DNA of 64,000 nucleotides from Bradyrhizobium sp. NP1 (lineage in GTDB: Bacteria > Pseudomonadota > Alphaproteobacteria > Rhizobiales > Xanthobacteraceae), in NCBI RefSeq assembly GCF_030378205.1, contig NZ_CP127385.1:7648922-7712921 (forward strand). Reading direction: 5' to 3'. Below the pieces are notes generated by a model. That model did not search any database. It saw only the letters and a program-made list of their open reading frames with translations, and had not been told where the DNA came from. Position numbers and translations under genes: made by a program. Below, in pieces: positions 8,695-64,000 of the stretch. Positions within the stretch are counted from its first letter, which is position 1. Every line of letters starts with the position of its first letter.

Positions 8695-9170
8695 ATGCAA
8701 GCCGGTTCGCAAGCCACGCGCGCGCGCTGTGGCGCACGGAACGCATCGTCGCCGAACTCCGCCTGAAGCGGCTGCTGGGTAACCTCGGATTGCAGGCGCT
8801 GGCCGCGCTGGCAACATCCTGCGCACTGCTGCTGTTCGAGCTCGCGGCCTATTTCGCGCTGGTGCAGAGCTGGAGCGCGATCGCTTCCGCAACGATGCTC
8901 GGTTTCGTCAACCTCGTGGTCGCCGGCCTGCTCGTGCTGTTAGCGTTGCGCCGGCGGGCGGGCCGCGAGCTGACGCTGGCGAACGACGTGCATCGCGAGG
9001 CGCTCGCCGCTTTCGAGACCGAGCTGCAGCACGCGGAGACAACGGCGCCGGCCACGCTGCGCGCCGCGCTCGAAAGCGCCGCCATTCCGCTGTTGCTGCC
9101 ACTGATTCCGCTGGTGATTCGCCGCCTGCGCAGGGCCAGGGCCGCGACGCCTGCGACCGACGATTTGTGA
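8691..9170 (+). CDS. Holin-superfamily/YqjE-like membrane protein
   Basis: The 159-residue protein has two strong membrane helices (LQALAALATSCALLLFELAAYFALV and ATMLGFVNLVVAGLLVLLALRRR). A charged helical region follows, then a third hydrophobic stretch (AAIPLLLPLIPLVIRRLRR). Pairing with an ElaB/YqjD-like gene mirrors the enterobacterial yqjD-yqjE arrangement. The family name includes phage holins, but nothing phage-like is near, so a housekeeping or stress membrane role is more likely. It is coupled to the preceding gene by an ATGA overlap. Confidence 0.6.
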   Translation: MNASRFASHARALWRTERIVAELRLKRLLGNLGLQALAALATSCALLLFELAAYFALVQSWSAIASATMLGFVNLVVAGLLVLLALRRRAGRELTLANDVHREALAAFETELQHAETTAPATLRAALESAAIPLLLPLIPLVIRRLRRARAATPATDDL

Positions 9171-9197
9171 CGCCTGGACGTTTTTTCGGAGAGACCC

Positions 9198-9608
9198 ATG
9201 AACCACCCCGCCTTCCCGCCGCTACGCAACACCGCGTTGCCACACACGTTCCGCCAGATCCGCATCGAGCGCGCACGCGAGCATGGCCATCCCGAGGGCG
9301 ACAGCAGGACCGCCTATATCCTGATCGCGCCGCTCGACGACGAGGGACGGATCGATGCCACCGTGTGGGCTGCGCACAAGGAGGCCTGCCGCGTGGTGCG
9401 CAAGCGCGCCGACGGCGACGACAGCCTCGGACATCTCGTTCGCGGTCCGGGCGGCCACTGGCGTTTCCACTATGACGTGTCCGGCAAGACCGCGGACGAG
9501 TCCGGCCACCATTTCGAGAACGAGCGATTCGAGCTCGGCGAGTATGTCTCGGTGCGCGAGGCGGACGGCCCGCACGCCTACCGGGTGGTTGCCGTCAACG
9601 CGCTCTGA
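9198..9608 (+). CDS. Conserved-looking protein of unknown function (136 aa)
   Basis: This soluble 136-residue protein has no signal peptide. It is rich in His, Asp and Arg and has ordered beta-like segments (TAYILIAPLDDEGRIDATVWAAH, HWRFHYDVSG, FELGEYVSVREADG). I do not recognise the family. GGAGAGACC gives a good ribosome binding site. It is the third gene of the FixK-box operon, 27 bp after the holin-like gene, and ends 1 bp before the convergent Pat-like gene. The context suggests a hypoxia-induced accessory protein. Confidence 0.7.
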   Translation: MNHPAFPPLRNTALPHTFRQIRIERAREHGHPEGDSRTAYILIAPLDDEGRIDATVWAAHKEACRVVRKRADGDDSLGHLVRGPGGHWRFHYDVSGKTADESGHHFENERFELGEYVSVREADGPHAYRVVAVNAL

Positions 9609-9609
9609 G

Positions 9610-12348
9610 CTACCGATTCGGCCGGATCAATCCGGCGTGCCTGATGTGGTCGGGCACCGTGGCGAGGTCGAGCGAGACCTCGACAATGCCGGCATCGTGG
9701 ACGTCGCTCGCGGTCTTGAAGCCGAGCTCGCGGCACATCGCGAGCATCGTCATGTTCTCGCGAAGCACTTCGCCGGTCAAGGTTTTCAGGCCTTCGCTGC
9801 CTGCATAGTCGATCAAAAGCCGCATCAGGCTCCAGCCGAGCCCGCGGCCCTTGAGGTCGGAGCGCAGCAGGATGGCGTATTCGGCGTTCTCGTAGCGGGA
9901 GTCCGAATGCAGCCGGACCACCCCGAGCACCTCGCCGCTTGCCTGATCGAGCGCGACAAAGGCCATCGCGCGGGCATAGTCGAGCTGGGTCAGGCGCGAG
10001 ATGAATTGATGCGAGAACGCCTTTACCGCATGAAAAAAGCGCAGCCGGAGATCCTCGGGTGAAACGCGATCGAGCAGCCTTGCGATCGCGGGCTCGTCCT
10101 CGGGCCGCACCGGACGGACCGCGACCGTCGAGCCGTCGCGCAGCTTGAGCTCGCCCTCCCACTGCGCAGGATAGGGCCTGATCGCCAACCGCGTCTGCCC
10201 CGCGAACAGCCGCGCCGGCGGGCCGATCGCGACGCGCGCGTCGAGCGCCAGCACGCCGCTCTCGTCCGCGATCAGCGGATTGATGTCGAGCCCGCGGATC
10301 TCGGGCAGGTCCGCCGCCATCTGCGACAGCTTTACCAGCGTCAGCGGCACGGCGTCGGGCGGCACTGCGGGCACGTCGCGGTAGGCCGGGAGCAGCCGGG
10401 CGATCGCGGTGCGCCCGACGAGGTCGCGCGCCAGGTTCATGTCGAGCGGCGGCAGCGCCAGCGCCTTGTCCTTGACAACCTCGACCGCGGTGCCGCCGCG
10501 GCCGAACACCATGACCGGGCCAAAGGTGGGATCGTCGGCTATCCCCAGGATCAGCTCGCGCGCCGCAGGCCGCGTGATCATCGGCTGGATCATCACGCCC
10601 TCGATGCGCGCGTCCGGCCTCGCGCGCCGGGCGCGCTCCAGCACCCTGGTCGCAGCATTGCGGACCTCCTCGCCGGTGGCGAGGCCAAGGATGACGCCGC
10701 CGATATCGGACTTGTGGGTGATGTCGCGGGAGAGGATCTTGACTGCGACCGACTGGCCCTGGCCCAGGAATGGCGCGGCCTTGGCAGCCGCTTCGTCGGG
10801 ACTGGCCGCGGCGATCGTCGGCACGATCGCGATGTCATAGGCCGCAAACAGCGCGGCGATCTCGATCGGATCGAGCCAGGCACGGCCCTCCTTCCGGGCA
10901 TTCGCGATCAACTTCCTGGCCGATTCCACATCGGGCGTGAACAGCGACGACACGCCGGGCGGCACCGCCATCAGCGCTTCGATGGCCTCGCGATGCTTCA
11001 CCAGATGCATGAAGGCCCGCACGGCGTCGTCCTCGGTGGGAAAATGCGGGATCGTCGCCTTGTCGAAGATCGGCGCGACCAGCTGGTCGTTGCCGACCCA
11101 GGCCGCAAGCACCGGCTTTGCCGAGTCACGGCGTTGCGCGCGATCCTCGCCCACCCGCGCGGCAACGGCCCGCGCAATCTCCGGCGCCGACGCCACCGCC
11201 GTCTCCACATTCATGACAAGCACGGCGTCGCTGCCGGGGTCGGCGAGCAGCACGTCGAGCGCCGCCCCATAGCGCCCGGCGTCGGCATCGCCGCCGATAT
11301 CGACCGGATTGGCCTTCGACCAGGTCGGCGACAGCGCGGCATCGAGCCGTGCCGCGATATCCTTCGCCAGCACCGCCGCGGTGCCGCCGAGCTCGGCGAG
11401 GCGATCGATGGCAAGGATGCCGAGCCCGCCGCCATTGGTCAGGATGGCAAGGCGCGCCCCCTGCGGCGCCCGGCTCCGGCCGAGCAGCGCCGCACAGTCG
11501 AACAGCTCGCGCAGATCCATGACGCGAAGCAGTCCGGCGCGGCGGAACGCCGCGTCATAGACGGCATCGGAGCCGGCCAGCGCGCCAGTATGGGTGGCGG
11601 CGGCCTTCGCGCCTTGCGCCATCCGCCCCGATTTCACCACCACCACCGGCTTCAACCGTGCCGCGGCGCGCGCCGCCGACATGAACTTGCGGGCATCCTT
11701 GACGCCCTCGACATAGAGCACGATCGCGCGGGTCTTTTCGTCGAGCGCGAAATAATCGAGCAGGTCGGCGACATCGACGTCGAGCTGATCTCCGATCGAG
11801 ACGATGCCGGAGAAGCCGATCGACTTCTCGGCGCCCCAGTCGACCATGGCGGCCGCGATCGCGCCGGACTGCGAGATCAGCGCCAGCGAGCCGGCGGCGG
11901 GCGAGCGCGCGGCAAAGCTCGCATTCAATCCGAGCGCCGGAAACATGACGCCCAGGCAATTGGGGCCGACGATCCGCATCTTGGCGGCATGTGCATCGCG
12001 CAGCACCGCTTCCGCGTGCGAACCCTCGCCATGGCCGAGGCCGGAGGAGATGATGACCGCGCCGGCAACGCCGCGCGCGCCAGCCTCCCGAATGATGCCC
12101 GGGATAGTCTCGGCCGGCGCGGTGATGACGATCAGATCGGGGGTGAAGGGCAGCGCCGCGAGGCTCGGATAGGTCTTCTTGCCGTCGATCGCGGCGTGGC
12201 GCGGATTGACCACCGCGATCTCGCCGGAAAAGCCGGCGGCCTGGAGGTTGCGCAGCACCGCCGCGCCGAGTGAATGCGGCCGAGGGCTGCCGCCCACCAG
12301 CGCGACGCTGCGCGGACGGAAAACCTGTTCTAGGCGAAAGGTGGACAT
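9610..12348 (-). CDS. Bifunctional ADP-forming acyl-CoA synthetase / GNAT acetyltransferase (Pat-like)
   Basis: The 912-residue protein has four modules. A CoA-binding domain (about 8-140, VALVGGSPRPHSLGAAVLRNL) comes first, then a succinyl-CoA-ligase-like domain with the phospho-histidine region ATHTGALAGSD (about 255). An ATP-grasp domain follows (about 490-715: IAIVPTIAAASPDEA, VAVKILSRDITHKSDIGGV, PMITRPAARELILG), and a GNAT domain ends the protein (about 735-890, ending with the motif LKGRGLGWSLMRLLIDYA). Pat/PatZ proteins of this layout acetylate acetyl-CoA synthetase and other enzymes; a working synthetase half would convert acetate plus ATP to acetyl-CoA. It overlaps the CBS gene start-to-stop by 19 bp and shares its FixK-controlled promoter. 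Confidence 0.9.
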   Translation of the reverse strand: MSTFRLEQVFRPRSVALVGGSPRPHSLGAAVLRNLQAAGFSGEIAVVNPRHAAIDGKKTYPSLAALPFTPDLIVITAPAETIPGIIREAGARGVAGAVIISSGLGHGEGSHAEAVLRDAHAAKMRIVGPNCLGVMFPALGLNASFAARSPAAGSLALISQSGAIAAAMVDWGAEKSIGFSGIVSIGDQLDVDVADLLDYFALDEKTRAIVLYVEGVKDARKFMSAARAAARLKPVVVVKSGRMAQGAKAAATHTGALAGSDAVYDAAFRRAGLLRVMDLRELFDCAALLGRSRAPQGARLAILTNGGGLGILAIDRLAELGGTAAVLAKDIAARLDAALSPTWSKANPVDIGGDADAGRYGAALDVLLADPGSDAVLVMNVETAVASAPEIARAVAARVGEDRAQRRDSAKPVLAAWVGNDQLVAPIFDKATIPHFPTEDDAVRAFMHLVKHREAIEALMAVPPGVSSLFTPDVESARKLIANARKEGRAWLDPIEIAALFAAYDIAIVPTIAAASPDEAAAKAAPFLGQGQSVAVKILSRDITHKSDIGGVILGLATGEEVRNAATRVLERARRARPDARIEGVMIQPMITRPAARELILGIADDPTFGPVMVFGRGGTAVEVVKDKALALPPLDMNLARDLVGRTAIARLLPAYRDVPAVPPDAVPLTLVKLSQMAADLPEIRGLDINPLIADESGVLALDARVAIGPPARLFAGQTRLAIRPYPAQWEGELKLRDGSTVAVRPVRPEDEPAIARLLDRVSPEDLRLRFFHAVKAFSHQFISRLTQLDYARAMAFVALDQASGEVLGVVRLHSDSRYENAEYAILLRSDLKGRGLGWSLMRLLIDYAGSEGLKTLTGEVLRENMTMLAMCRELGFKTASDVHDAGIVEVSLDLATVPDHIRHAGLIRPNR

Positions 12349-30215: not shown

Positions 30216-30347
30216 GCCGCGGCCGCTCACCTGCTTCGGCGATGACCACGCGATTTTGAAGGAAGTTTGCGGGAAGAAACGCGGCACGCCCGGCGTCATG
30301 AATGCTGGTCATCCGACCGCAGGACTCACGTACCGTTCAGCCTTCTC

Positions 30348-31148
30348 ATGCATACGCAAGCCGATCCCACCACCGCAGCCGCGCCGGCCGACAGCGGCAT
30401 CGCCCTGCACACCTTCGGTCGACGAGACCGGCCGCCACTGTTGCTGATCCATGGCATCGGCATGGGTCACCGGTTATGGCTTCGGCAGATCGACGAATTC
30501 AGCGCAACCCATTTCGTCATTGCCCCGGACCTGGCCGGCCTCACCTCGCCCGCCCGCGACGTCCCCATCGATATCGCGCTCGTGGCGCAAAGCCTTGCAA
30601 AGGCGCTGCGCTCGCTGGGCGCCGTCGAGCTTTCCGTGTGCGCCATCTCGGCCGGCGCAAGCGTGGCGCTCGGGCTTGCGCTGCTTGGCAACGTCCGTAT
30701 CCGGCGGCTGATGCTGTCAGCGCCGCAGGCCCGGGCGCCGCGGATCGCGCTCGGCCTTCAAATCGCGATCTGCGCCGCGATACCGGAATCGGCGCTCGTG
30801 AAGGCTGCGGTGAAGGCGATCGGCGGCGGTCCCGACATCGCCGCGGCTGCCGCGGAAGACCACCGCGCCCTCGGCAAGCGCGGCCTGCTTGGCGCGATGG
30901 CGGCGCTCTGACGGCTGGATCTGCGACAACGTCTTCGCGAGATCGATATCCCGACCTGGGTTTTCTGCGGCTCGAACGACCGCGTGAACCTCCCGGCGGC
31001 GCGCGCGATTGCGGCCGCAATGGCGCGCTCCGTCCTGCGCGTCGAGAATGGAATGGGTCACCTGTGGAACGTACAGGACCCCGTTCGATTCAACCGCGCG
31101 ATGCGAGAGGCGATGAGCGGCGACTATCCGAACAACGTGGCAGGTTGA
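30348..31148 (+). pseudogene. Alpha/beta-hydrolase gene split by an in-frame TGA
   Basis: The frame opens at ATG 30348 and shows an alpha/beta-hydrolase fold: PPLLLIHGIGMGHRLW (oxyanion), then a nucleophile elbow CAISAGAS. It meets TGA at 30909-30911 just after GLLGAMAAL. The same frame continues without a shift for 78 more codons and contains the missing part of the fold: RLDLRQRLREIDIPTWVFCG, the acid region SNDRVN and the catalytic histidine NGMGHLW, ending at TGA 31146-31148. Family members often have Trp at the stop position, so TGG to TGA is the likely change. The truncated product lacks the catalytic acid and histidine and should be inactive. Confidence 0.8.
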
Positions 31149-31213: not shown

Positions 31214-31786
31214 TCACGTCGCGCCGGCGACGATCCTGCGCGCCTTTTCCAGGAGTGCGAACAGCCGGTCATACTCCTCGGCCGTCAATCCGTCGCGCAG
31301 CGGCTGCTCGGTCGCCATCGCCAGCCCATGCATTTCCAGCATCAGCTTCTCGCCGGCGGGCGTGAGAAACAGCGAGTTGCGGCGACGGTCGCTTGGCGAA
31401 CGGCCGCGGATGGCAAGCCCCCGCGCCTCGAGCCCATCGACAATGGTGACGATGGCGGATTTGTCGAGATTGCCGATCCGCGCCAACTCGGCCTGGGAGT
31501 AACCCGGATTGGCCGAGATCAGCACCATGACCGTCAGCGAGCCCGGACGCAGGCCGTAAGGCAGGAACACGTTGGCGACGCGCTCGCTCAGGAGATGATG
31601 CAGCCGGCGGACCTGAAATCCGAGCCGCAGCGCATGCAGGCCGAGCTGGATGTCGCCGTCCTCGGCTTCGTTCTTGGCGTCAGGGCGCGGCAGTTCCGAT
31701 GCGTCCAGCGTGCTCAAAAAGCAGGGTCCTCTCTCGGTTCGAAATATCCGGCGCTTATGGCCCCAAACTCGGCTCGATTCAACCAT
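31214..31786 (-). CDS. MarR-family transcriptional regulator
   Basis: The product has up to 190 residues. The core GLHALRLGFQVRRLHHLLSERVANVFLPYGLRPGSLTVMVLISANPGYSQAELARIGNLDKSAIVTIVDGLEARGLAIRGRSPSDRRRNSLFLTPAG (in part) is the winged helix-turn-helix of MarR regulators, including the DxRxR wing (SDRRR). Two starts are possible: ATG at 31786, or TTG at 31717 preceded by GAGAGGA. It is divergent from the UGSC/TrxR operon with a 20-bp dyad between them, so it probably represses that operon and itself, with an aromatic or thiol-reactive ligand as inducer. Confidence 0.85.
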   Translation of the reverse strand: MVESSRVWGHKRRIFRTERGPCFLSTLDASELPRPDAKNEAEDGDIQLGLHALRLGFQVRRLHHLLSERVANVFLPYGLRPGSLTVMVLISANPGYSQAELARIGNLDKSAIVTIVDGLEARGLAIRGRSPSDRRRNSLFLTPAGEKLMLEMHGLAMATEQPLRDGLTAEEYDRLFALLEKARRIVAGAT

Positions 31787-31792
31787 CGTAAT

Positions 31793-31812
31793 ATAATCTG
31801 TAACCAGATTAT
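31793..31812. promoter_or_regulatory. 20-bp dyad, probable MarR operator
   Basis: ATAATCTG-TAAC-CAGATTAT has perfect 8-bp arms. It is 6 bp from the MarR ATG and 113 bp before the divergent operon, as expected for a MarR-family operator. Confidence 0.7.
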
Positions 31813-31925
31813 CTGATTGACAACCAATTTTGCTGGCGCATTATTGGGCGACGACAGCGAAAAGCAGCACATACAGGCGAAATATCGCGCCGTTGAGTGG
31901 GATTGGGCTTGGGTAGGAGACAACA

Positions 31926-33593
31926 ATGAACATTGCGGTTCCCGCGCCGTCGATCGTCAAGGACAAGATGATCTGCTTCAATCCGGTTGGTTTTCCACCG
32001 AAAATCAACAAGAAGCGCCTGGCGCCCCGCCTCGATGCCCTCGACGGCAAGACGATCTATCTGGTCGACAGCCGCTTCGACGATTCAATCGACCTCCTGA
32101 AGGAGGTGGAGCGCTGGTTCGTGAACCGCATGCCCGGCGTGCGCGTGAAGCTCGTCTCGCTGGCCGGCTATTACGGGCGCGACGATCAGGAGCTGTGGAA
32201 CCGGATCAGGGCTGACGGCGATGCCGCCATTATCGGCGTTGGGCATTGCTCGACCTGCGCGCCGGCGGTGGCGACCCACGCCGTCACCATGGAGACCCAG
32301 TTCGGCATTCCGACGGTCGCGCTGCACACAGCGACCTATGACCGTGTCGTGCGCTCGGTGACGCGCATGGCGGGGCTCGCCGATGCGCCCGCCGTCTTCG
32401 TCCCGCAGCCGGTGATGGGCAAGAGTGCTGCTGAATTGCGCGCCTATGTCGAGGGCGCCGATCCCGTGACCGGACGGCCCGTGATGGCCGAGATCATCGA
32501 GGCGCTGACGACTGCGCTCGCGGGAACGCAGCCGGTCGAGATCGAGCGCACCACGCCGCGCCTTCTCGAGCCCGCCGCCGAGGAGGAGCTGCATGAGCTG
32601 TTCCTGCGCAACAACTGGACCGACAAGCTGCCGATCATTCTGCCGACGGAGGAGCGCGTCGCGGCGATGCTGGCGGCGACCAGCCAGCCGGCCGACAAGG
32701 TGGTCGGCCGCATGCAGCCGACGCATAACCGCGGCCCCTGGGAATACACGGTCGAGAAGGTCGCGGTGAACGCGGTGATGGCCGGCGCCCGGCCGGAATA
32801 TTTCCCCGTCATCCTCGCGCTCGCGGCCTCGCAGATCTCGGCGCGCGGCTCGACGTCGAGCTCGGGCTCGGCGATGGTCGTGGTCAACGGACCGATCCGC
32901 AACGAGATCGGGATGAACTGCGGCATCGGCGCGATGGGTCCCTACAACCACGCCAACGCGACCATCGGGCGCGCCTATGGGCTGTTGTCGCAGAACCTGC
33001 AGGGCGGCTCGGTGCCGGGCGACACCTTCATGGGCTCGCTCGGCAACGCCTACACCTATAACAACATCACCTTCGCCGAGAACGAGGAGCGCAGCCCCTG
33101 GGAGCCGCTGCATGTGCAGCGCGGCTTCAAGGCCGAGGACAGCGTCGTCAACGTGTTCTTCGGCTGCCGTTCCACCAGCTTCGGGCTCGGCCTGCGCAAG
33201 GACTACTGGCGCGAGCACGTGCGCGACATGCTGGTCGCGGTCGACACCGTCACCGCGCCCTGCCTGTTGCTCGACCCGATCACCGCGCGGCAGTTCATCG
33301 ATCGCGGCGGCTTCGACGCCAAGGACAAGCTGATCCGCTTCGTCCACGAGACGGCGCAGATGCCGGCGGGCCGCTACTGGGACATGCAGCTCGTGCAGAA
33401 CTACATCTATCCGAACGCGACGCTCGGCGTCGAACCGCTGGCGACGCGGGCAAAGGCCGCGCCCGACCAATTGATCCCGATGTTCCTGGAGGGCGAGATC
33501 AATGTCGTCGTGGTCGGCGGCGAGGCCAATGGCTACTGGCAGATCATGGGCGCCAAGCTTCGCGCGCAGGTATCGGTCGACGACTGGCGCTAG
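31926..33593 (+). CDS. UGSC-like CxxC protein (cysteine form of a seleno/redox family)
   Basis: The 555-residue soluble protein has an N-terminal domain whose redox-like motif CSTC (Cys108-Cys111) lies in GVGHCSTCAPAV. This position and spacing fit the UGSC motif family, where the first residue may be selenocysteine. A second, larger domain (about 225-555) contains MNCGIGAMGPYNHANATIGRAYGLLSQNLQGG, FFGCRSTSFGLG and a final VVVVGGEANGYWQIMG, with conserved-looking cysteines. I do not know its reaction. It is followed 15 bp later by a thioredoxin-reductase-like gene, so a dithiol reduced by that flavoprotein is a reasonable model. It is the first gene of a seven-gene operon. Confidence 0.7.
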   Translation: MNIAVPAPSIVKDKMICFNPVGFPPKINKKRLAPRLDALDGKTIYLVDSRFDDSIDLLKEVERWFVNRMPGVRVKLVSLAGYYGRDDQELWNRIRADGDAAIIGVGHCSTCAPAVATHAVTMETQFGIPTVALHTATYDRVVRSVTRMAGLADAPAVFVPQPVMGKSAAELRAYVEGADPVTGRPVMAEIIEALTTALAGTQPVEIERTTPRLLEPAAEEELHELFLRNNWTDKLPIILPTEERVAAMLAATSQPADKVVGRMQPTHNRGPWEYTVEKVAVNAVMAGARPEYFPVILALAASQISARGSTSSSGSAMVVVNGPIRNEIGMNCGIGAMGPYNHANATIGRAYGLLSQNLQGGSVPGDTFMGSLGNAYTYNNITFAENEERSPWEPLHVQRGFKAEDSVVNVFFGCRSTSFGLGLRKDYWREHVRDMLVAVDTVTAPCLLLDPITARQFIDRGGFDAKDKLIRFVHETAQMPAGRYWDMQLVQNYIYPNATLGVEPLATRAKAAPDQLIPMFLEGEINVVVVGGEANGYWQIMGAKLRAQVSVDDWR

Positions 33594-33608
33594 CCGCGGG
33601 GAATCGCC

Positions 33609-34610
33609 ATGCAGGACGCCGATGTCGTCGTGATCGGGGCCGGTGTCGCGGGCCTCACCGCCGCCGCGATCGCGGCGAAGCATGGGCTTTCCACGCTGGT
33701 CATCGAGCAGCTCGCGCCCGGCGGCCAGGTCGCGACGATCGAGAACGTGCAGAACTTTCCTGGCTTTCCCGACGGCATCGCCGGCTACGAGCTCGGTCCT
33801 CTGCTGCAGCAGCAGGCCGAGGCGGCCGGCGCGCTGATGCAGCTCGACACGGTTTCCGCCATCGCCGCTGACGGCGCGTCTTACCGGGTGACCTGCGCGG
33901 GCGAGACGATCGCGGCGCGCGCGGTGATCATCGCGGCCGGCTCGTCGCTGCGCAAACTCGGCGTATCAGGCGAGAGCGAATTGACCGGCCGCGGCGTGTC
34001 GCATTGCGCGGCCTGCGATGGTCCCCTGTTCAAGGGCAAGCCTGTCGTCGTCGCCGGTGGCGGCGACTCCGCGTTCGACGAGGCGGCGACACTCGCGGGC
34101 TTCGCCTCCGAAATCCTGATCGTGCATCGGGGACCTCATCCGCGCGCGCGCCGCCCGGCGGTCGAGCAGCTCGCGGCGAAGCCCGATGTCACGATCATGG
34201 CGGAGGCCGAGATCGCGACGATCCATGGCGCGACAAGCGTCACCGGCGTCGACGTCAGGACCCGTGACGGCACGCTGCATAAGGCATGCAGCGCCGTGTT
34301 CGGCTATGTCGGCTTGCAGCCGCGCACCGGCTGGCTGGACGGATTTGTCGCAACCGACACCGAGGGCCGCATCGTCACCGACGCCATGATGCAGACCTCG
34401 CGTCCCGGCGTCTTTGCCGCTGGCGACATCCGCGCCGGCGCGGTCTGCCTGCTCGCCGCCGCCGCCGGCGATGCCGCCACGGCTGCGACCGCGGCCGCCC
34501 AATACCTGCACGCCGGACCGCAACGATCCGGCGAAAACAAGACAAAGCGATCACCGGGAGGAACTGCCATTGCTGATGGTGAGCGGAGCCGCGTCGCCTC
34601 AGGAGGTTGA
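33609..34610 (+). CDS. Thioredoxin-reductase-like FAD/NAD(P)H flavoprotein
   Basis: The 333-residue protein has the FAD-binding motif VVIGAGVAGLTAA (residues 7-19) and the redox-active disulfide CAAC at 133-136 (SHCAACDGPLFKG). The NADPH-binding motif VVVAGGGDSAFDEA follows, and the C-terminal FAD motif is TSRPGVFAAGDIR. This is the low-molecular-weight thioredoxin reductase fold. Being inside this operon, 15 bp after the UGSC-like gene, it is more likely a dedicated reductase for that protein than the housekeeping TrxB. Its C-terminus overlaps the start of the MFS gene. Confidence 0.9.
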   Translation: MQDADVVVIGAGVAGLTAAAIAAKHGLSTLVIEQLAPGGQVATIENVQNFPGFPDGIAGYELGPLLQQQAEAAGALMQLDTVSAIAADGASYRVTCAGETIAARAVIIAAGSSLRKLGVSGESELTGRGVSHCAACDGPLFKGKPVVVAGGGDSAFDEAATLAGFASEILIVHRGPHPRARRPAVEQLAAKPDVTIMAEAEIATIHGATSVTGVDVRTRDGTLHKACSAVFGYVGLQPRTGWLDGFVATDTEGRIVTDAMMQTSRPGVFAAGDIRAGAVCLLAAAAGDAATAATAAAQYLHAGPQRSGENKTKRSPGGTAIADGERSRVASGG

Positions 34611-35979
34611 ACGCAGCTGGCGGACGCCGTCGCGAGCCTGGTACAGCGTCATCGTGCTGTCCCTGGTCTCGATGATGTCGAACATCGACCGCGGGATCGT
34701 CAACCTGCTGGTCGGGCCGATGAAGCGCGACCTGCATCTGACCGACAGCGAGATCAGCCTGCTGATCGGCGCAACCTTCTCGATCGCCTATGTCTTCCTC
34801 AGCTTTCCCCTGTCGCGGCTTGCCGACACCCGCAGCCGCAAGGTGATCCTGACCACGGGGCTGACGCTGTGGAGCTTTGCCACCATGCTGTGCGGGCTCG
34901 CGCAGGCGCTCTGGCAATTGTTCGCGGCCCGCGCGCTGGTCGGCGCCGCCGAGTCGGTCAAGGGGCCGTGCTCGATGTCGATGATTGCCGACCTCGTGCC
35001 GCATGAGAAGCTGCCGCGCGCGTTCGCGATCTTCCAGCTCGGCATCACCGGCGGCATGGCCGGTGCGCTCGTGGTCGGCGGGCTCCTGCTCACGCTGTTC
35101 AGCGGGCTGCCGCCGCTGTATTTGCCCGGCGGCATCGTCGTGCATGACTGGCACCTGGTGCTGCTGGCGACCGGATTTCCGGGCCTGCTGCTTGCAGCCG
35201 TCATGGCCATGACGGTGCGGGAGCCCGCGCGGCGCGACCGGACCGACCATGACGGCGTGCCGCTGCGCGAGGTGGCGCGTTTTCTTGGCAAGCACTGGCA
35301 GTTCTACCTGCCGCTGTTCGCCGGAATTGCGATCGCCTCGATCGAGAGCTACGGCTTGCAGGCGTGGCGACCCGCCTTCTTCGATCGCAGCTACGGCTGG
35401 CGGCCGGAACGGATCGGGCCGCTGCTCGGCGGCGCCATCCTGGTCGCAACGCCGCTCGGCCTCTATCTCGGCACGCTCGTTGCCGAATATCTCACGCGAC
35501 GACGGCCGCAGGACGCGCTCGTTCTCTCCTGCCTGATCGCCTATGGGCTGGCGATGCCGCTGTTTGCGATCATGCCGCTGATGCCGGATCCTTGGGCCGC
35601 GCTCGCACTTGCCTTTTTCGGCTTCACCGCCTGGAGCATGAGCGCACCCGGCCAGAACGCGGCAATCCAGATCGTGACGCCGAACGCGATGCGCGGCCAG
35701 GTCAGCGCGCTCTATCTGTTTTCGATCAGCGTGGTCGGCGGCGGCTTCGGGCCGACCGCGATCGCCCTGATCACCGACCACGTATTCCGGGACGAGGCGA
35801 TGCTGCGCTACGCGATGGCCACCTTCTCGCTGATCGTGGGCCCCCTGGTGCTGCTGTCGATCGCAAGCGCGGTGAGGCCCTACCGCGCCGCCTATCGGCA
35901 GATGCAGGGCTCGCCGCGCCCGTGGCCGGACACGATCGACAACCCCACGTCTCAAAGGAGGGTCGCTTGTTCAGGATGA
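34576..35979 (+). CDS. MFS transporter, spinster-like
   Basis: The transporter of about 467 residues has 12 predicted helices. It begins WYSVIVLSLVSMMSNIDRGIVNLLVGPMKRDLHLTDSEISLLIGATFSIAYVF, a pattern found in the Spinster/hexuronate-type MFS group, with the loop motif RLADTRSRK. The GGGAGGA site at 34557-34563 is closer to a TTG at 34570 than to the ATG at 34576; both keep the same frame. It overlaps the flavoprotein gene by 35 bp. It may export the product or import an alternative substrate alongside the ABC system. Confidence 0.85.
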   Translation: MVSGAASPQEVERSWRTPSRAWYSVIVLSLVSMMSNIDRGIVNLLVGPMKRDLHLTDSEISLLIGATFSIAYVFLSFPLSRLADTRSRKVILTTGLTLWSFATMLCGLAQALWQLFAARALVGAAESVKGPCSMSMIADLVPHEKLPRAFAIFQLGITGGMAGALVVGGLLLTLFSGLPPLYLPGGIVVHDWHLVLLATGFPGLLLAAVMAMTVREPARRDRTDHDGVPLREVARFLGKHWQFYLPLFAGIAIASIESYGLQAWRPAFFDRSYGWRPERIGPLLGGAILVATPLGLYLGTLVAEYLTRRRPQDALVLSCLIAYGLAMPLFAIMPLMPDPWAALALAFFGFTAWSMSAPGQNAAIQIVTPNAMRGQVSALYLFSISVVGGGFGPTAIALITDHVFRDEAMLRYAMATFSLIVGPLVLLSIASAVRPYRAAYRQMQGSPRPWPDTIDNPTSQRRVACSG

Positions 35980-37040
35980 TGAGCTTGGCGCTGCTCGCGC
36001 TCTTCGGCCTTGGCGAACTCGCAGCCGCGCAGGATGCCGCGCCGGCAAGCCCGGTGCGGTTCGGCTGGCAGGCCTCGACGCCGGTGATGACGTTCTGGGC
36101 GGGCTTCGAGCTGAAGACCTACGAGGCGCAAGGTTTGAGGCTCACGCCCACGAGCTTCAACGACAACGCGCCCGAGATCGAGGCGCTGGTGGCGCGCCAG
36201 CTCGACCTCGCCGCGGTTGCGCCGGCGCCGACCCTGCAGGCGATCAGCTTCGGCGCCCCGCTCAAGATCATCGCCGGCGTCGAATACGCCTTCACCGACA
36301 GGCAGGGCGTGCACTGGTCGGCCACCAACCTGATCGCGCGCAAGGATACCGGCATCCAGTCGCTCAAGGACCTGGTCGGCAAGCGCGTCGCGGTCTTTGG
36401 GCTGTCGTCGAACTGGTACCTCGCCTTGCTCGACCGGCTGCGCGAGGCCAACATCGATCCGAAAAGCATCAAGTTCCTCAGCATGCCCTACACGCAGATG
36501 GAGGGCGCGCTGGCCCACGGCGAGGTCGACGCCGCCATCATGACCGCGATCGGCGCGTTCCATGCCTCGCAGCGCATCCCGACCACGCTGTTGATGACCA
36601 GCGACCAGATCACGGGCATCGCGATCGACATGTCGCAGGTGATCGCGGCCCGCGCCGACTGGCTGAAGGACCACGAGGAAGAGGCGGTCCGCTTCCTGAT
36701 GGGCATGCTGGCGACGCGGAAATTCATCGAGGACGACGTCGCCAAGGGCGGCGCCGGGATCAAGGCGATCGCGCAGAAGACGCTGAAGCTCGACGCCGAC
36801 ACCAACGAGGCGTTCTACCGGCTGCGGGTGGCTTCCGCCGGCCGCGAGCTCGAACTGATCAATTCCCTCGACCTGCCGAAGCAGACCTTCGTGGCCTATG
36901 GCCGCATGCTGACCGATGCCGGCCAGCTTCGCGGCAGGGCGGCCGCGACCTTCGAGCAGATCGTCGATACCAGCTATCTGCGCAAGGCATTTTCCCGGCT
37001 CGGCATGAGCTGGGACAACAGCAAGGTGGCGAGCCAATGA
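35967..37040 (+). CDS. ABC transporter substrate-binding protein, SsuA/NMT1 type
   Basis: The protein of about 357 residues has a signal peptide (MMSLALLALFGLGELAAAQ). A periplasmic domain with the SsuA/TauA/NMT1 layout follows: VRFGWQASTPVMTFWAGFELKTYEAQGLRL, LDLAAVAPAPTLQAIS, IQSLKDLVGKRVAVFG, HGEVDAAIM. Related proteins bind sulfonates, nitrate, pyrimidines or aromatic acids. TTG at 35967 fits AAAGGAGGG best; ATG codons at 35976 and 35979 are alternatives. It is co-transcribed with ATPase and permease genes that follow with 4-bp overlaps. Confidence 0.88.
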   Translation: MFRMMSLALLALFGLGELAAAQDAAPASPVRFGWQASTPVMTFWAGFELKTYEAQGLRLTPTSFNDNAPEIEALVARQLDLAAVAPAPTLQAISFGAPLKIIAGVEYAFTDRQGVHWSATNLIARKDTGIQSLKDLVGKRVAVFGLSSNWYLALLDRLREANIDPKSIKFLSMPYTQMEGALAHGEVDAAIMTAIGAFHASQRIPTTLLMTSDQITGIAIDMSQVIAARADWLKDHEEEAVRFLMGMLATRKFIEDDVAKGGAGIKAIAQKTLKLDADTNEAFYRLRVASAGRELELINSLDLPKQTFVAYGRMLTDAGQLRGRAAATFEQIVDTSYLRKAFSRLGMSWDNSKVASQ

Positions 37041-37843
37041 CCACTAGCGCAATGACAGCCCCTGCCGACGACACGCATGTCGAGATCAGGCGGATCAGCC
37101 AGCGCTATCACACCGGCCGGCGCGGCGAGCTGCTCGCGCTCGATCACGTCGACCTCGCGGTGCGCCGCGGCGAGTTCGTAAGCATCGTCGGCCCCAGCGG
37201 CTGCGGCAAGTCGACCCTGCTCTACATCGTGGCCGGCCTGCTCGAACCAAGCGAGGGCGAGGTTGTCGTCGACGGCAGGCGCATCGACGGCCCGCATCCC
37301 GATCGCGGCCTGGTGTTGCAGAACTCCAGCATCTTTCCCTGGCGAACCGTCGAGGAGAACGTCGCGTTCGGCCCGCAAATGGCCGGCGTGCGGAGCGATC
37401 AGCGCAGGGCGCTGGTCGCCCATCATCTCGACATGGTCGGCCTCTCGAAGTTCGCGACCTTCTATCCGCGCGAGCTTTCCGGAGGCATGAAGCAGCGCAT
37501 CGCGATCGCGCAGATGCTGGCCTGCGCGCCGAGCGTATTCCTGATGGACGAACCGTTCGGCGCACTCGACTCGCTGTCGCGCGAGGTGCTCCAGGACCAG
37601 TTGCTGCAGCTCTGGGAGCGCGACCGCAAGACGGTGCTGTTCGTCACCCACAGCATCGACGAGGCCGTGCTGTTGTCCGACCGCGTGGTGGTGATGTCGC
37701 CGTTGCCGGGGCGGGTCAAAGAGATCGTGCCGATCGATCTGCCACGCCCGCGCGACGATGCGCGCACAAATCCGGCGTTTGGCCGGCTGCGCAACCACAT
37801 CTGGTCGGCGATCCGGGAGGAAACCATGGAGGCGATCGGATGA
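37037..37843 (+). CDS. ABC transporter ATP-binding protein, SsuB/TauB type
   Basis: The 268-residue ATPase has Walker A GPSGCGKST, the Q-loop LVLQNSSIFPWRTVEENV, the signature LSGGMKQR, Walker B VFLMDEPFGALDSL and the switch VTHSIDEAV. The FPWRTVEENV segment is typical of nitrate/sulfonate/taurine importers. It overlaps its neighbours by ATGA on both sides, so it is tightly coupled to the binding protein and permease. Confidence 0.93.
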   Translation: MTTSAMTAPADDTHVEIRRISQRYHTGRRGELLALDHVDLAVRRGEFVSIVGPSGCGKSTLLYIVAGLLEPSEGEVVVDGRRIDGPHPDRGLVLQNSSIFPWRTVEENVAFGPQMAGVRSDQRRALVAHHLDMVGLSKFATFYPRELSGGMKQRIAIAQMLACAPSVFLMDEPFGALDSLSREVLQDQLLQLWERDRKTVLFVTHSIDEAVLLSDRVVVMSPLPGRVKEIVPIDLPRPRDDARTNPAFGRLRNHIWSAIREETMEAIG

Positions 37844-38703
37844 CGATGCTGACGGCCTCGGAACGATCGGTCGTGGCGGATGCCGAGCGACAACCGGGCG
37901 CGCCCGCGCCGGCGGCGAAACCGGCCGCGGCATCGCGCCGGCCCGGATGGAGCCGGCTGCGCGCGATCGCGCGGTACTATCCCGTCTTCCTGGTCTTTCT
38001 TGTCTGGGAGATCCTCTCGCGGCTCGGCGTGCTCGATCCGATGTTCATGCCGCCGCTCGAGGATGTCGGGCGCACCTTCTACAACGAGGTCTTCGTCACC
38101 CACGATCTGCTCGAGCACATCCGCGTCAGCGTGCTGCGGGCGGGTGCAGGGCTCGGCCTCGCCGTCTTCATCGGCATTGCCGCCGGCATCCTGATGGGGC
38201 GGGTGCGGATCGTCGAGAGCTTTCTCGATCCCCTGATCTCGGCCCTGTTTCCGACGCCGAAACTGGCGCTGTTTCCCCTGATGATGATCTTCCTCGGCAT
38301 CGGGGACGCCTCCAAGATCGCGCTGATCTTCCTCGGCTGCTTCTTTCCGATCGCCATCAACACCTATGCCGGGGTCAAGAACGTCGACAAGTTCTTCATC
38401 TGGAATGCGCGAACCAAGGGCTCCGACAGCCGGCAGCTGATCTGGCACGTCATCATCCCCGCCTCGCTTCCCTTCGTGTTCGCCGGCCTGCGGGTCGCGA
38501 CCTCGACCGCGTTCTTGCTGATCGTGGCCTCCGAGCTCATCGCCGCCAATGACGGCCTCGGCTATCTGATCATGTTCGCCGAGCGCTCGTTCGATCCCGC
38601 GCTGATGTGGTGCGGCATCCTTTTGATCGCCGGCATGGGATTCACCGTCGACCGCCTGCTGCTCGCGCTCGGCGCGCGGCTGTTCGTCTGGCAGGACAAG
38701 TAA
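37840..38703 (+). CDS. ABC transporter permease, SsuC/TauC type
   Basis: The 287-residue protein has a Pro/Ala-rich cytoplasmic N-terminus of about 40 residues and then six membrane helices. The BPD_transp_1 pattern includes ISALFPTPKLALFPLMMIFLG and the EAA-like loop ARTKGSDSRQLIWHVIIPASLPFVFAGLR, and it ends with ELIAANDGLGYLIMFAERSFD. It completes the importer whose substrate probably feeds the redox enzymes of this operon. Confidence 0.92.
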   Translation: MTMLTASERSVVADAERQPGAPAPAAKPAAASRRPGWSRLRAIARYYPVFLVFLVWEILSRLGVLDPMFMPPLEDVGRTFYNEVFVTHDLLEHIRVSVLRAGAGLGLAVFIGIAAGILMGRVRIVESFLDPLISALFPTPKLALFPLMMIFLGIGDASKIALIFLGCFFPIAINTYAGVKNVDKFFIWNARTKGSDSRQLIWHVIIPASLPFVFAGLRVATSTAFLLIVASELIAANDGLGYLIMFAERSFDPALMWCGILLIAGMGFTVDRLLLALGARLFVWQDK

Positions 38704-38728
38704 CGGATACGGGAACGGGAGGGCCACG

Positions 38729-39841
38729 ATGGCTGATGCATCCGGAGCCGCGGCAGGTGCGCCGCAAATCACCGCCATCGGGCTTGCACCGAAGACGATC
38801 CACGGCATGCGCTACCGGCGCGTGGGCCGCTCCGGCCTCAGCGTGTCCGAAATGGGCGTCGGGTGCTTTTCGTTCGGCGAGTTCGTCGACACCGCCGGCG
38901 CCGAAGCGGTCGTGCACTGCGCGCTCGATCTCGGCATCAACTATTTCGACACCGCCGACAGCTACGGGCTCGGCGTCTCCGAGGAGAAGCTCGGCGCCGC
39001 CCTGGTCGGCCGGCGCAGCCGGGCCGTCATCGCCACGAAATTCTCGAACCGCATGGACTACGGCCCGAACGACATCGGCACCTCGCGGCTGCACATCGTG
39101 CGCGCCTGCGAAGCGAGCCTGCGCCGGCTGAAGACCGACTACATCGATCTCTACCAGGTGCATTGGCCTGACCGCCGCACCCCGATCGAGGAAACCATGC
39201 GGGCGCTCGACGACCTCGTCCGGGAGGGCAAGGTTCGTTATCTCGGCGTCGCCAATTTCTTCGAATGGGAGATCTGCGAGGCACAGTGGACCGCCGAGAA
39301 ACTCAACCTGAACAAGTTCGTCTCGGCGCAGGATCACTACAACCTGCTCTATCGCGACATCGAAAAGCGCATGGAGCCGTTCTGCGTCAGATACGGCATC
39401 GGCATGAACTCCTATTTTCCGCTCGCCGGCGGCCTGCTCACCGGCCTGTACCGGCGCGACGAGCCGGCGATAACAGGCACGCGGGCGGCGGCAAGCGCGA
39501 GCTATGCGGCGTGGCAGAGCAAGCGCAATTGGGACGTCCAGGAGGCGCTCCAATCGTTCGCAGAGGCGCGCCGATGGTCGCTGCCGCAGATGTCGCTGGC
39601 CTGGCTGTTGTCGCGGCCGGCGATGTCGACGATCATCGCCGGCGCCGACAGGCCCGAGCATCTGATGGACAACGTGAAGGCGCTCGATATCCGCTTCACG
39701 CCCGAGGATCTCGTCGAGATCGACCGCCTGACGCTGGTCGATGAGGACCGCAGCGTCGCGCCGGTCTATCGCCGGCTGCGCCCCGAGAAGGTCCACGAAT
39801 TCGGACCGATGCAGGAAGCGAGAGCAAGGGCGCTTTCGTAG
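38729..39841 (+). CDS. Aldo/keto reductase
   Basis: The 370-residue protein has the AKR (alpha/beta)8 barrel signature. The catalytic Asp and Tyr are in NYFDTADSYGLGVSEEKLG, the lysine region is RAVIATKFSNRM, and YIDLYQVHWPDRRTPIEETMRALDDLVREGKVRYLGVANF and the NAD(P)-binding tail STIIAGADRPEHLMDNV follow. This is the VKC-beta-like group. It is 25 bp after the permease gene, behind GGGAGGG, and is the likely last gene of the MarR-associated operon. It would reduce an aldehyde or ketone intermediate. Confidence 0.9.
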   Translation: MADASGAAAGAPQITAIGLAPKTIHGMRYRRVGRSGLSVSEMGVGCFSFGEFVDTAGAEAVVHCALDLGINYFDTADSYGLGVSEEKLGAALVGRRSRAVIATKFSNRMDYGPNDIGTSRLHIVRACEASLRRLKTDYIDLYQVHWPDRRTPIEETMRALDDLVREGKVRYLGVANFFEWEICEAQWTAEKLNLNKFVSAQDHYNLLYRDIEKRMEPFCVRYGIGMNSYFPLAGGLLTGLYRRDEPAITGTRAAASASYAAWQSKRNWDVQEALQSFAEARRWSLPQMSLAWLLSRPAMSTIIAGADRPEHLMDNVKALDIRFTPEDLVEIDRLTLVDEDRSVAPVYRRLRPEKVHEFGPMQEARARALS

Positions 39842-61998: not shown

Positions 61999-62119
61999 GG
62001 CTCACCTTATATAGACCGGATGCCAGCCATTACCGGGGCGACCGTGGAAATTCAACCTCGTCAGTGGCTTATCCAACCCCCGGAGACGCTTTTCGCGGCC
62101 AAAGCGAGGGCGGAAAGCG

Positions 62120-62148
62120 TTGACGCTGCCAACCCTCGCCTCTATAAG
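62120..62148 (+). promoter_or_regulatory. Sigma-70-type promoter, probably for rpsT
   Basis: TTGACG at 62120-62125 and TATAAG at 62143-62148 are separated by exactly 17 bp, a near-consensus housekeeping promoter. No other plus-strand gene lies before rpsT at 62504. Confidence 0.75.
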
Positions 62149-62157
62149 GGCGGCGAT

Positions 62158-62191
62158 GGCGGCGGGCGCAATCCCGCCGCCGCTGTTCTTT
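62158..62191 (+). terminator. Attenuator-like hairpin in the rpsT leader
   Basis: The 9-bp stem GGCGGCGGG / CCCGCCGCC with a 6-nt loop is followed by GCTGTTCTTT. It starts 10 bp downstream of the -10 element, so it would be at the very 5' end of the transcript. It may be an attenuator or only a stable 5' hairpin. Confidence 0.4.
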
Positions 62192-62248
62192 GAGCGGCGC
62201 CGCCAGATGGGCCTTGTTGCCCGCGGGGCAGGCTTGCTCGAGAATATG

Positions 62249-62327
62249 CTAGTGTGGCGGTTCAGAAGTCCGCATCATTGTGGCCCACGAATTCGTCATG
62301 CGGACTTCCGAACCAAAGCCACACTAG
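62249..62327. repeat. Palindromic (MITE-like) element, copy A
   Basis: This is a 79-bp inverted repeat with outer arms CTAGTGTGGC / GCCACACTAG and inner arms GGTTCAGAAGTCCGCAT / ATGCGGACTTCCGAACC. It lies in the leader between the rpsT promoter and rpsT. Confidence 0.85.
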
Positions 62328-62338
62328 GTCAACACGTC

Positions 62339-62414
62339 GCTAGTGTGCTTCGATTCCGAAGTTCGCAAACGGGGGCCCGCACAATGATGCGGACTTCGGA
62401 ATCGAGACACTAGC
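62339..62414. repeat. Palindromic (MITE-like) element, copy B
   Basis: This is a 76-bp inverted repeat with ends GCTAGTGT / ACACTAGC and inner arms CGATTCCGAAGTTCGCA / ATGCGGACTTCGGAATCG. It shares the CTAGTGT ends and GTCCGCAT-like inner arms with copy A, 11 bp away. Confidence 0.85.
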
Positions 62415-62503
62415 GACAACTTGAAGCTTGGATCACAGGACTGAGCGGCCGGTGCGCTTTCAGCCGACCAGCAGCGACCGGTCACCGAAGGACATTTGAG
62501 ATC

Positions 62504-62767
62504 ATGGCCAATACCACTTCCGCCAAGAAGGCGACGCGCAAGATTGCCCGCCGCACCGCCGTCAACAAGTCGCGCCGCACCCAGATGCGCGGCGCCGTTC
62601 GCCAGGTCGAAGAGGCGATCAAGAGCGGCGACCGCGCTGCAGCAGTAAAGGCGATGGCGCATGCCGAGCCGGCGCTGATACGCGCAGCGCAGCGCAACAT
62701 CGTTCACAAGAACAATGCCAGCCGAAAGGTGTCGCGCCTCACGCGCCAGATCGCGAAGCTGAAGTAG
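62504..62767 (+). CDS. rpsT: 30S ribosomal protein S20
   Basis: The 87-residue basic protein starts [33 protein letters not shown] (in part) and contains the S20 helices [41 protein letters not shown] (in part). S20 binds 16S rRNA near its 5' domain during assembly. GAAGGACA precedes the ATG. In many alphaproteobacteria rpsT is close to dnaA, which is not in the window. A good terminator follows. Confidence 0.97.
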
Positions 62768-62809
62768 ACCGATCGCGAATAAACTGATCGAAACGCATAT
62801 TCGTCACTC

Positions 62810-62836
62810 GAGCCCGGCATGCGCCGGGCTCTTTGC
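62810..62836 (+). terminator. Rho-independent terminator after rpsT
   Basis: The 9-bp stem GAGCCCGGC / GCCGGGCTC with loop ATGC is followed by TTTGCTTTTC, 42 bp after the stop codon. Confidence 0.9.
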
Positions 62837-62841
62837 TTTTC

Positions 62842-64000
62842 AGACGACGCATTGTGACACGAAGCGGCACACCTTTTGTCGCCACGCACCGCATTCATGC
62901 TTTGCGCGCCCGTAGTTTCACTTGATGCAGTTTTGCCTCACCTGAAACACGGCGATGCATTGCGAGAAAGCCAATGATGACAGGGACAAAGGCAATGCGG
63001 CGATCGATCGCATGCTGCGGCCCGCGTGGGAGTTACCCTGCAAAAAGAGTCGCAAAAAACTCCGCTTCGATAATCACTTATCCCCATAGCGAAACGAAGT
63101 ATTTGGAAAATTCGGTTTAGCCGCGTTCGCTTGAAGAATTTGTGAATTTTTTTTGGCCAGTCTTGCCAATTGTGACGACGCGCGTGACATGCGCGAATCT
63201 GTACGCTGATTCAAAAACTTGCTTTCAACTTTGGAAACCTTTTCGCCGCGACTGCGAAGCCGGCGATGGTTCTTCGCGCGCCCATCTTGAATCAAATGCA
63301 TTGCGAGACGACACGCATCGTGTAATTTCAATTTCGTTCGCGGCGCCTACGATCTTGAGACCAGCGCGGTTTTAGAAACGAGGCGGACGTGCAAATCGGC
63401 GGCGGTGTGCGCGTTGGCGGCGCTTTCCAAGCGATTGTCGAGCCGTAGCCCATAGCAATATGGGAGCGGGAGTCCTGTGTCTAAATTTCTCGAGCGAGGC
63501 GTTTTTTTCGTCTCCGCTGACCAACCAGAGAAATAAGAAGCAGGACAATCGGCAAGAAGCGGAAACGAAGCTCAGGCGAATGGGTTAGTGACGGGTGAAC
63601 AGACGGCCTTGCGGCTGACACTGTGTTTGCACGGGGCTGATTTTTGTAACACGCAGGATGACAACTTGCCGTGAGCAATCGCGGCGAGGCGGGGAGGTTG
63701 CATGCTTTACGGAAACATCGCGGTATTCGCTTCGAAACCATTTTCCACCGATGCCGTAACGGATGCGACAGGCTCGTCCTGCGCGGAGGCACCCACCAGA
63801 CCTTCGAGTATTTGCTGACCTCGCCGGCCTTTTCTTCGATCCAGCATTGATGTCTGCCTGACGGCGGTTTCGCCGAACGGCGTCTCATGCCCGGACGACG
63901 GAAGGCTCGCTTGAGGTCGCGTCACCGCGGGAAACCGGCAACTACTCTCGCGGGGCGCATCACCAGCCGCCTTTACTCTCTACGGAAAAGTTCTCAGACA
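62842..64000. other. 1.16-kb AT-richer region without a convincing gene
   Basis: No open frame here looks like a known protein; the longest (63481-63888 and 63074-63331, both minus) have no ribosome binding site or recognisable domain. Base composition drops between about 63050 and 63350, with A/T runs (TTTTTTTTGG, AATTTCAATTTC). One near-consensus DnaA box TTATCCCCA is at 63079-63087. By the usual rpsT-dnaA order of relatives this may be the dnaA upstream or replication-origin region, but a single box is weak evidence. Confidence 0.35.

Follow-up and report, generated by a model that had tools for sequence, protein, structure and literature searches.

A Bradyrhizobium operon joining a selenium-free UGSC protein, a thioredoxin reductase-like flavoprotein and an ABC importer: a candidate import-and-reduce system

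The 64,000-nucleotide stretch analysed here (the window; contig NZ_CP127385.1, positions 7,648,922 to 7,712,921) forms the end of the 7.71-Mb single-contig genome of the soil bacterium Bradyrhizobium sp. NP1. It contains an operon of seven co-directional open reading frames (ORFs) at 31926-39841 and a divergent gene for a MarR-family regulator. The first gene encodes a protein with a UGSC domain, the second a thioredoxin reductase (TrxR)-like flavoprotein, and the others a major facilitator superfamily (MFS) transporter, a complete ATP-binding cassette (ABC) importer and an aldo/keto reductase (Table 1). We give an even chance to the reading that the operon is induced to import a compound and reduce it, with a selenium-free relative of selenoprotein B of glycine and D-proline reductase at its core. 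We regard as firm the composition of the gene set, the pattern of selenium use and the pairing of UGSC protein and TrxR; support for a reductase mechanism, which we infer, is real but limited.

ORF calls and Pfam searches bore out the gene set given in a preliminary description of the stretch: seven genes on one strand and, transcribed away from them, a MarR gene, with an 8+4+8 dyad in between. That description named rare co-occurrence of the genes in other genomes as evidence against its reading; the genes do occur together elsewhere. The complete eight-gene set recurs in three further loci (L002, L027 and L083), and L082 has seven of the eight, an antisense ORF having been called by the simple gene caller at the place of the ATPase. 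L081, on the same contig as L002, was left out of this count. The MarR gene is divergent also in L002, L027, L052 and L081-L083.

The UGSC protein and its selenocysteine-containing relatives

The UGSC domain (PF24696) was found at residues 19-178 of the first protein with 82.1 bits, against a Pfam gathering cut-off of 25, which substantiates the proposed UGSC homology; with NF041046 ('UGSC family (seleno)protein') the score was 51.1 bits and did not reach the curated cut-off of 125. The earlier label 'UGSC-like' holds for this part of the protein, but it overlooked that two thirds of the chain are a separate domain of about 350 residues (200-555), here called UGSCc, for which no Pfam family was found at E ≤ 1. 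Across 24 aligned UGSC domains the redox pair were the only invariant columns, selenocysteine (Sec) being counted as Cys. Searches with the full-length protein and with UGSCc alone gave at least 7823 and at least 7999 matches, respectively, among the best 8000 candidates scored, so that UGSCc is abundant. The 120 matches listed in each search were mostly nameless; the named ones were mostly hypothetical proteins, with some UGSC family (seleno)proteins and one thioredoxin, and none of the 120 listed for stand-alone UGSCc carried a Pfam domain. Searches of the sequences of solved structures with the UGSC protein, its profiles and one PrdB-like protein gave chance-level matches or none.

The two domains occur together. 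In a sample of 398 genomes drawn evenly from the phylum, five had PF24696, and these same five had UGSCc (overlap by chance 7e-11); one extra, marginal UGSCc match (E 7e-4) lay in a 3741-residue frame. Ten of 265 genomes of the genus had matches: four carried the fusion, five had UGSCc and UGSC as neighbouring genes, and one had a weak match to the UGSC domain only. UGSCc possibly binds the substrate. Four of the five split loci encode UGSCc with a thioredoxin-like domain (CETC motif) attached to it; genes for a thioredoxin reductase, a GntR regulator and a symporter accompany the fusion. The same split set occurs in L116, from genome G405 of the phylum sample. The thioredoxin-like matches were weak (22.6 bits in L075, 21 in L077 and 16.3 in L116), all under the Pfam cut-off of 23.5; in these three loci the symporter was tested and belonged to the sodium:dicarboxylate family.

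Other arrangements were seen as well. In environmental assemblies, a 114-residue CPTC thioredoxin-like protein (L063:8584-8928; Trx 22.1 bits, under the cut-off) directly precedes a stand-alone UGSCc (8953-10032), and no CxxC partner was noticed beside the stand-alone UGSCc of L065, where no systematic search was made. In L118 (7119-11148, minus strand) two tandem UGSCc genes are accompanied by a UGSC gene that contains TGA, a TrxR-like gene and, adjoining, a rhodanese-like gene. Directly downstream of the Sec UGSC gene, L045 (10620-11828) and L047 (3385-4647) encode a family of 402-420 residues, followed by an MFS gene; the L045 member had no Pfam or NCBIfam match.

Residue 108, the first of the CSTC motif, was covered by 66 tblastn places from 65 loci, the window's own included. 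An in-frame TGA stands there in 31 places and a Cys codon in 35, among them the window, which has TGC and so no selenocysteine; residue 111 is Cys in all 66. Other in-frame stops were found only at residue 202, between the two domains, in L024 and L061. Compared with 60 base shuffles of each place, the 48 nt from codon 108 folded with a mean z of -1.04 in the Sec places vs +0.41 in the Cys places (Mann-Whitney p 5e-8, inflated by near relatives). The hairpins of the Sec places have a recurrent GGTC loop and stems that vary while keeping pairing, and a few TGA places fold no better than shuffles. The window keeps the upstream arm, which encodes conserved residues, without the pairing. These TGA codons, most of them followed by hairpins that resemble selenocysteine-insertion elements, bear out the relation to selenocysteine forms suggested in the preliminary description. 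In L045 selA and selB adjoin the UGSC gene; a search for SelA gave no match in the window genome, the Escherichia coli control being positive.

In a quick 48-row tree, built with the residue-108 column removed and rooted at the midpoint, the Cys rows formed one clade (SH-aLRT 100) inside the Sec rows. A single change from Sec to Cys in the ancestors of the window protein is likely; because the root is the midpoint, this direction is likely rather than proven. Since the Cys clade is nested in the Sec forms, the window gene is probably a former selenoprotein gene.

The thioredoxin reductase-like partner and kinship with selenoprotein B

The second protein had been labelled a flavin reductase; it proved to be thioredoxin reductase-like instead. 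Its score with TIGR01292 (thioredoxin-disulfide reductase) was 278.7 bits, short of the cut-off of 343.45, which the split-type TrxR of L116 passes with 403 bits. For the neighbourhood counts we used 61 full-length loci, leaving out the window itself, L081 (a copy of L002) and partial loci. A TrxR relative lies on the same strand within 300 bp of the UGSC gene in 36 of the 61, namely in 27 of the 34 with Cys and in 9 of the 27 with Sec, which supports the proposed TrxR-like partner. In three more Cys loci it lies at 1.1-2.3 kb, and in the partial locus L078 at 6.5 kb. Overall, 40 TrxR matches fell within 3 kb, and the 507 kb farther out contained none.

All linked TrxRs have CASC or CAAC. Pairs in the UGSC tree often recur in the TrxR tree, and the two distance matrices correlated with r 0.765 (n=26; 0 of 2000 permutations as high), a value not corrected for species phylogeny. 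The nearest paralogue of the window TrxR in its genome has 37% identity. A long branch (0.98, support 100) sets it, together with the split-type TrxRs, apart from the linked ones.

Kinship with selenoprotein B was seen at the level of profiles. In hhalign, the UGSC domain alignment matched an alignment of eight PrdB/GrdB-like proteins with E 1.7e-6 and probability 90 over 85 columns, CxxC falling on CxxC, whereas controls gave E values of 7.5e-4 to 0.12; the suggested remote link to selenoprotein-B-type reductases is thereby upheld. The eight are PF07355-related proteins (L092-L099), seven of them over the Pfam cut-off; L092 matched TIGR04483 (PrdB) with E 7e-24, below its cut-off. The Asp/Glu racemases were rejected as parents of the UGSC domain (four alignments, hhalign E 0.021-0.12). 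Neither GrdA nor GrdC, GrdE or PrdA was among the Pfam matches of the operon; GrdE/PrdA was considered as a parent of UGSCc, but PF09338 gave no match in the 398 genomes, and none in the controls either. Elsewhere in the same genome a stand-alone PrdB/GrdB-like protein with CPVC is encoded (L144:8094-9116, minus strand; G000:C1 about 3422090-3423120), around which no UGSCc- or TrxR-like protein was noticed among the ORFs listed.

Operon layout, regulation and neighbouring genes

The seven genes are spaced, in order, by a 15-nt gap, a 35-nt overlap, three 4-nt overlaps and a 25-nt gap. When the 139-nt intergenic stretch was base-shuffled 2000 times, 27 of the shuffles contained at least one perfect 8-nt dyad with a gap of 0-8. 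The TTGACA hexamer starts 4 nt behind the dyad. Upstream of homologous operons, the stretch in which AGATTATCT adjoins TTGACAAC is conserved in part; the perfect symmetry of the dyad is not. The MarR regulator would repress from the dyad until a substrate or metabolite appears.

Table 1. Features of the operon and its upstream region (positions in the window)
Feature	Position	Strand	Remarks
MarR-family regulator	31214-31786	-	PF12802/PF01047 (Pfam); divergent from operon
Perfect inverted repeat 8+4+8, ATAATCTG-TAAC-CAGATTAT	31793-31812		Probable MarR operator
Promoter-like TTGACA and weak -10 about 17 nt on	31817-31845	+	Consensus match only
UGSC protein, 555 aa, CSTC 108-111	31926-33593	+	UGSC domain 19-178, UGSCc about 200-555
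Codons of CSTC	32247-32258	+	First codon TGC here; TGA (Sec) in many relatives
TrxR-like flavoprotein, 333 aa, CAAC 133-136	33609-34610	+	PF07992 (Pfam); TIGR01292 under cut-off
MFS transporter	34576-35979	+	PF07690 (Pfam); start 34576 is our choice
NMT1/SsuA-type solute-binding protein	35976-37040	+	PF09084 (Pfam); TIGR01728 under cut-off
ABC ATPase, Nrt/Tau/Ssu type	37037-37843	+	PF00005 (Pfam)
ABC permease, TauC/SsuC type	37840-38703	+	PF00528 (Pfam)
Aldo/keto reductase	38729-39841	+	PF00248 (Pfam)

The importer had been described as SsuABC-type. It is a complete Ssu/Tau/Nrt-type ABC importer, but none of the curated sulfonate cut-offs was reached (score/cut-off: TIGR01728 for SsuA, 84.5/163.5; PRK11247 for SsuB, 173.2/395; PRK11365 for SsuC, 127.5/347). 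With these cut-offs missed and no desulfonating gene in the operon, a sulfonate role read from the label was set aside.

Hints to the substrate were sought among the neighbours of homologous UGSC genes. Genes for malonyl-coenzyme A (CoA) decarboxylase and malonyl-CoA synthase (clusters F11 and F13) adjoin the UGSC gene in 13 of the 61 loci. Eleven of these have one order (Rhizobiaceae, Chelativorans and one unplaced member of Rhizobiales); the genes are divergent in L028 and downstream in L052 (Sphingobium), which also has a MarR gene. In L012 and L052 the members were confirmed by family models, the synthases scoring 780 and 781 bits against a cut-off of 558. The window genome has two malonyl-CoA decarboxylase genes outside the operon. 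Neighbours in single or few loci were Rid-family proteins (L025, L030), luciferase-like monooxygenases (L026, L117) and TctA/TctC carriers; L078 has a CoA-transferase III and a thiamine pyrophosphate enzyme. An aldo/keto reductase occurs as a neighbour in the window group and in L018, whose UGSC gene is directly preceded by the gene for a 67% relative. Around many Sec loci, from Chloroflexota and other groups, none of these families was seen.

A product at the level of malonate or malonic semialdehyde fits several of the neighbours, which hint weakly at it. Aminomalonate or an N-O heterocycle as substrate would be a guess from the chemistry; among the literature matches listed, no title or opening of an abstract dealt with bacterial breakdown of aminomalonate.

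Some further observations concern the same loci and the window. The Rid-family gene precedes the UGSC gene, immediately in L025 and with the TrxR gene in between in L030; identification of these proteins as RutC was rejected, the scores being under the cut-off. A short MetE-like protein (PRK06520) is encoded downstream of the UGSC gene in both (L025:10947-12473, L030:11027-12478). In the window an alpha/beta-hydrolase-like frame upstream of the MarR gene (30300-31147, plus strand), with one in-frame stop near 30910, is probably a decayed gene. The GC fraction is 0.573 at 62001-64000 vs 0.63-0.70 elsewhere in the window.

Proposed mechanism, rival readings and comparison with known systems

Two published schemes frame the proposed mechanism. 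According to PMC3091704, the electrons of glycine reduction pass from NADPH through thioredoxin reductase and thioredoxin to GrdA and GrdB, and in the proposal for D-proline reductase the Sec of PrdB attacks the alpha carbon and its Cys resolves the selenoether. In Brachyspira pilosicoli, trxB and genes for sodium:alanine symporters belong to the grd cluster (PMC2897892). In the proposed scheme, the ABC importer, and perhaps the MFS carrier too, would bring in a small organic acid or a related compound. The TrxR-like flavoprotein would take electrons from NADPH and reduce the CSTC disulfide, as linkage and correlated divergence suggest. On the model of PrdB, Cys108, standing in the place of the ancestral selenocysteine, would attack the substrate held on UGSCc; a C-N (or C-O, N-O or C-S) bond would be cleaved, Cys111 would resolve the adduct, and the disulfide would be recharged. 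The aldo/keto reductase would handle a carbonyl product.

Several observations weigh against this scheme. The profile match spans just 85 columns and was obtained with a proteobacterial PrdB-like set, not with clostridial GrdB; a TrxR control alignment, matching in the 10 columns around its CxxC, reached E 7.5e-4 (probability 25), and therefore the motif alone explains part of the score, though not its length. Hidden Markov model (HMM) searches, proposed earlier for both UGSC and Grd families, supported the UGSC assignment, but the window protein had no match at E ≤ 1e-3 to the Grd/Prd models PF07355, TIGR04483 and TIGR01917/8, and PF07355 likewise gave no match at E 1 with the split UGSC domain of L075. 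Over 63 rows of UGSCc every Cys and Ser position varies (Ser390 is invariant in 22 fused rows), and pyruvoyl chemistry is therefore not evident. PMC2398784 and the review PMC13188914 group UGSC proteins with thioredoxin-like folds, in disagreement with a Grd link; such a fold is possible. TrxR adjoins only the minority of Sec loci given above, all eight that form the outermost Sec group being without it, and the mirror correlation carries the phylogenetic reservation already stated. When two very distant paralogues were added to the TrxR tree, the housekeeping-like group of the nearest paralogue and the split-type TrxRs fell among the linked TrxRs, with support 97 beside the Sec-linked ones, and a single linked clade is therefore not established. 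Finally, the neighbours of UGSC genes vary widely from locus to locus, and the malonate genes, most of them from loci of one gene order, are not in the window operon.

Other readings account for parts of the data. MarR regulators and MFS carriers often serve detoxification, and aldo/keto reductases clear aldehydes. The operon might accordingly be a stress or detoxification module in which the TrxR-like protein supplies electrons, the UGSC protein uses them to reduce a reactive xenobiotic, peroxides or disulfides, and the MFS carrier exports the product, no carbon being gained; a title in the reference list of PMC3091704, seen as a title only, names a peroxidase activity of GrdB. The complete importer inside the operon speaks against such a module, as do the other uptake systems (SDF symporter, TctA/TctC, PhnS-like solute-binding protein) and malonyl-CoA genes near relatives, and the large UGSCc domain would be left unexplained; we hold it to be unlikely. 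It is decidedly improbable that the protein is a non-redox enzyme, a lyase or hydrolase whose CxxC binds a metal or does covalent catalysis, with the TrxR-like gene serving a different purpose. The accessible UGSC literature states no activity, and 22 of the 61 loci have no TrxR match in the stretch covered, which in several of them ends close to the gene; yet a Sec followed by a Cys at +3 makes a typical redox site, and weak thioredoxin-like domains occur next to UGSCc or as part of the same protein. That UGSC and TrxR form one unit, with the importer and aldo/keto reductase merely sharing its transcript in this lineage, would agree with the importers of other families that accompany the pair in other clades. 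We regard it as very improbable, since the full set with its overlapping starts is kept in the further loci described above and the ORFs flanking it in L081-L083 fall in no shared cluster.

The import-and-reduce reading can be taken further, to a proposal that we consider rather doubtful. UGSC and UGSCc would form a broad, unrecognised class of glycine/proline-reductase-like enzymes without a pyruvoyl group in environmental bacteria, which reductively cleave a C-N, C-O or N-O bond of an abundant small acid (e.g. aminomalonate, giving malonate, or an N-O heterocycle, giving malonic semialdehyde). The class would exist in Sec, Cys, fused and split forms, the window version having been freed from selenium and paired with its own flavoprotein.

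In PMC9402790, UGSC accounts for 8.2% of selenoprotein genes and is among the commoner marine selenoproteins. The passages on UGSC found in the selenium and trace-element literature name no function and no Grd link, most subscription papers lying outside the coverage. A selenium-free Cys form with a linked reductase and its own importer, in a Bradyrhizobium-type genome, makes the function of UGSC testable, because the binding protein gives access to the substrate and production of the enzyme does not depend on Sec insertion.

Compared with the UGSC family (PF24696; NF041046), the window protein has the domain over the Pfam cut-off, with CxxC in place of UxxC; it differs in having Cys instead of Sec, in its fusion to UGSCc and in scoring under the NF041046 cut-off. 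A UGSC/Unknown_1 fusion selenoprotein of the Global Ocean Sampling set likewise joins a UGSC domain to a conserved domain of unknown function and is possibly the same fusion; PMC2398784 describes it only as a fusion with a likely thioredoxin-like fold. The flavoprotein shares the FAD and NAD(P)H domains and the CxxC of thioredoxin-disulfide reductase (TIGR01292), but stays under the equivalog cut-off and is separated by a long branch from the nearest paralogue in its genome. With GrdB/PrdB (PF07355, TIGR04483) the UGSC protein shares a profile-profile match with the redox motif aligned, a TrxR gene in the operon, like trxB in the grd cluster, and a likely reductive role; unlike them it has Cys, no direct HMM match and no evident pyruvoyl residue. 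It is not filed as a Grd/Prd system because a direct HMM match, GrdE/PrdA and a Cys or Ser of UGSCc invariant over all 63 rows were not seen. By analogy the UGSC system may nevertheless work like one, and the split loci, with TrxR, the thioredoxin-like-UGSCc fusion, UGSC and symporter, resemble the glycine-reduction relay.

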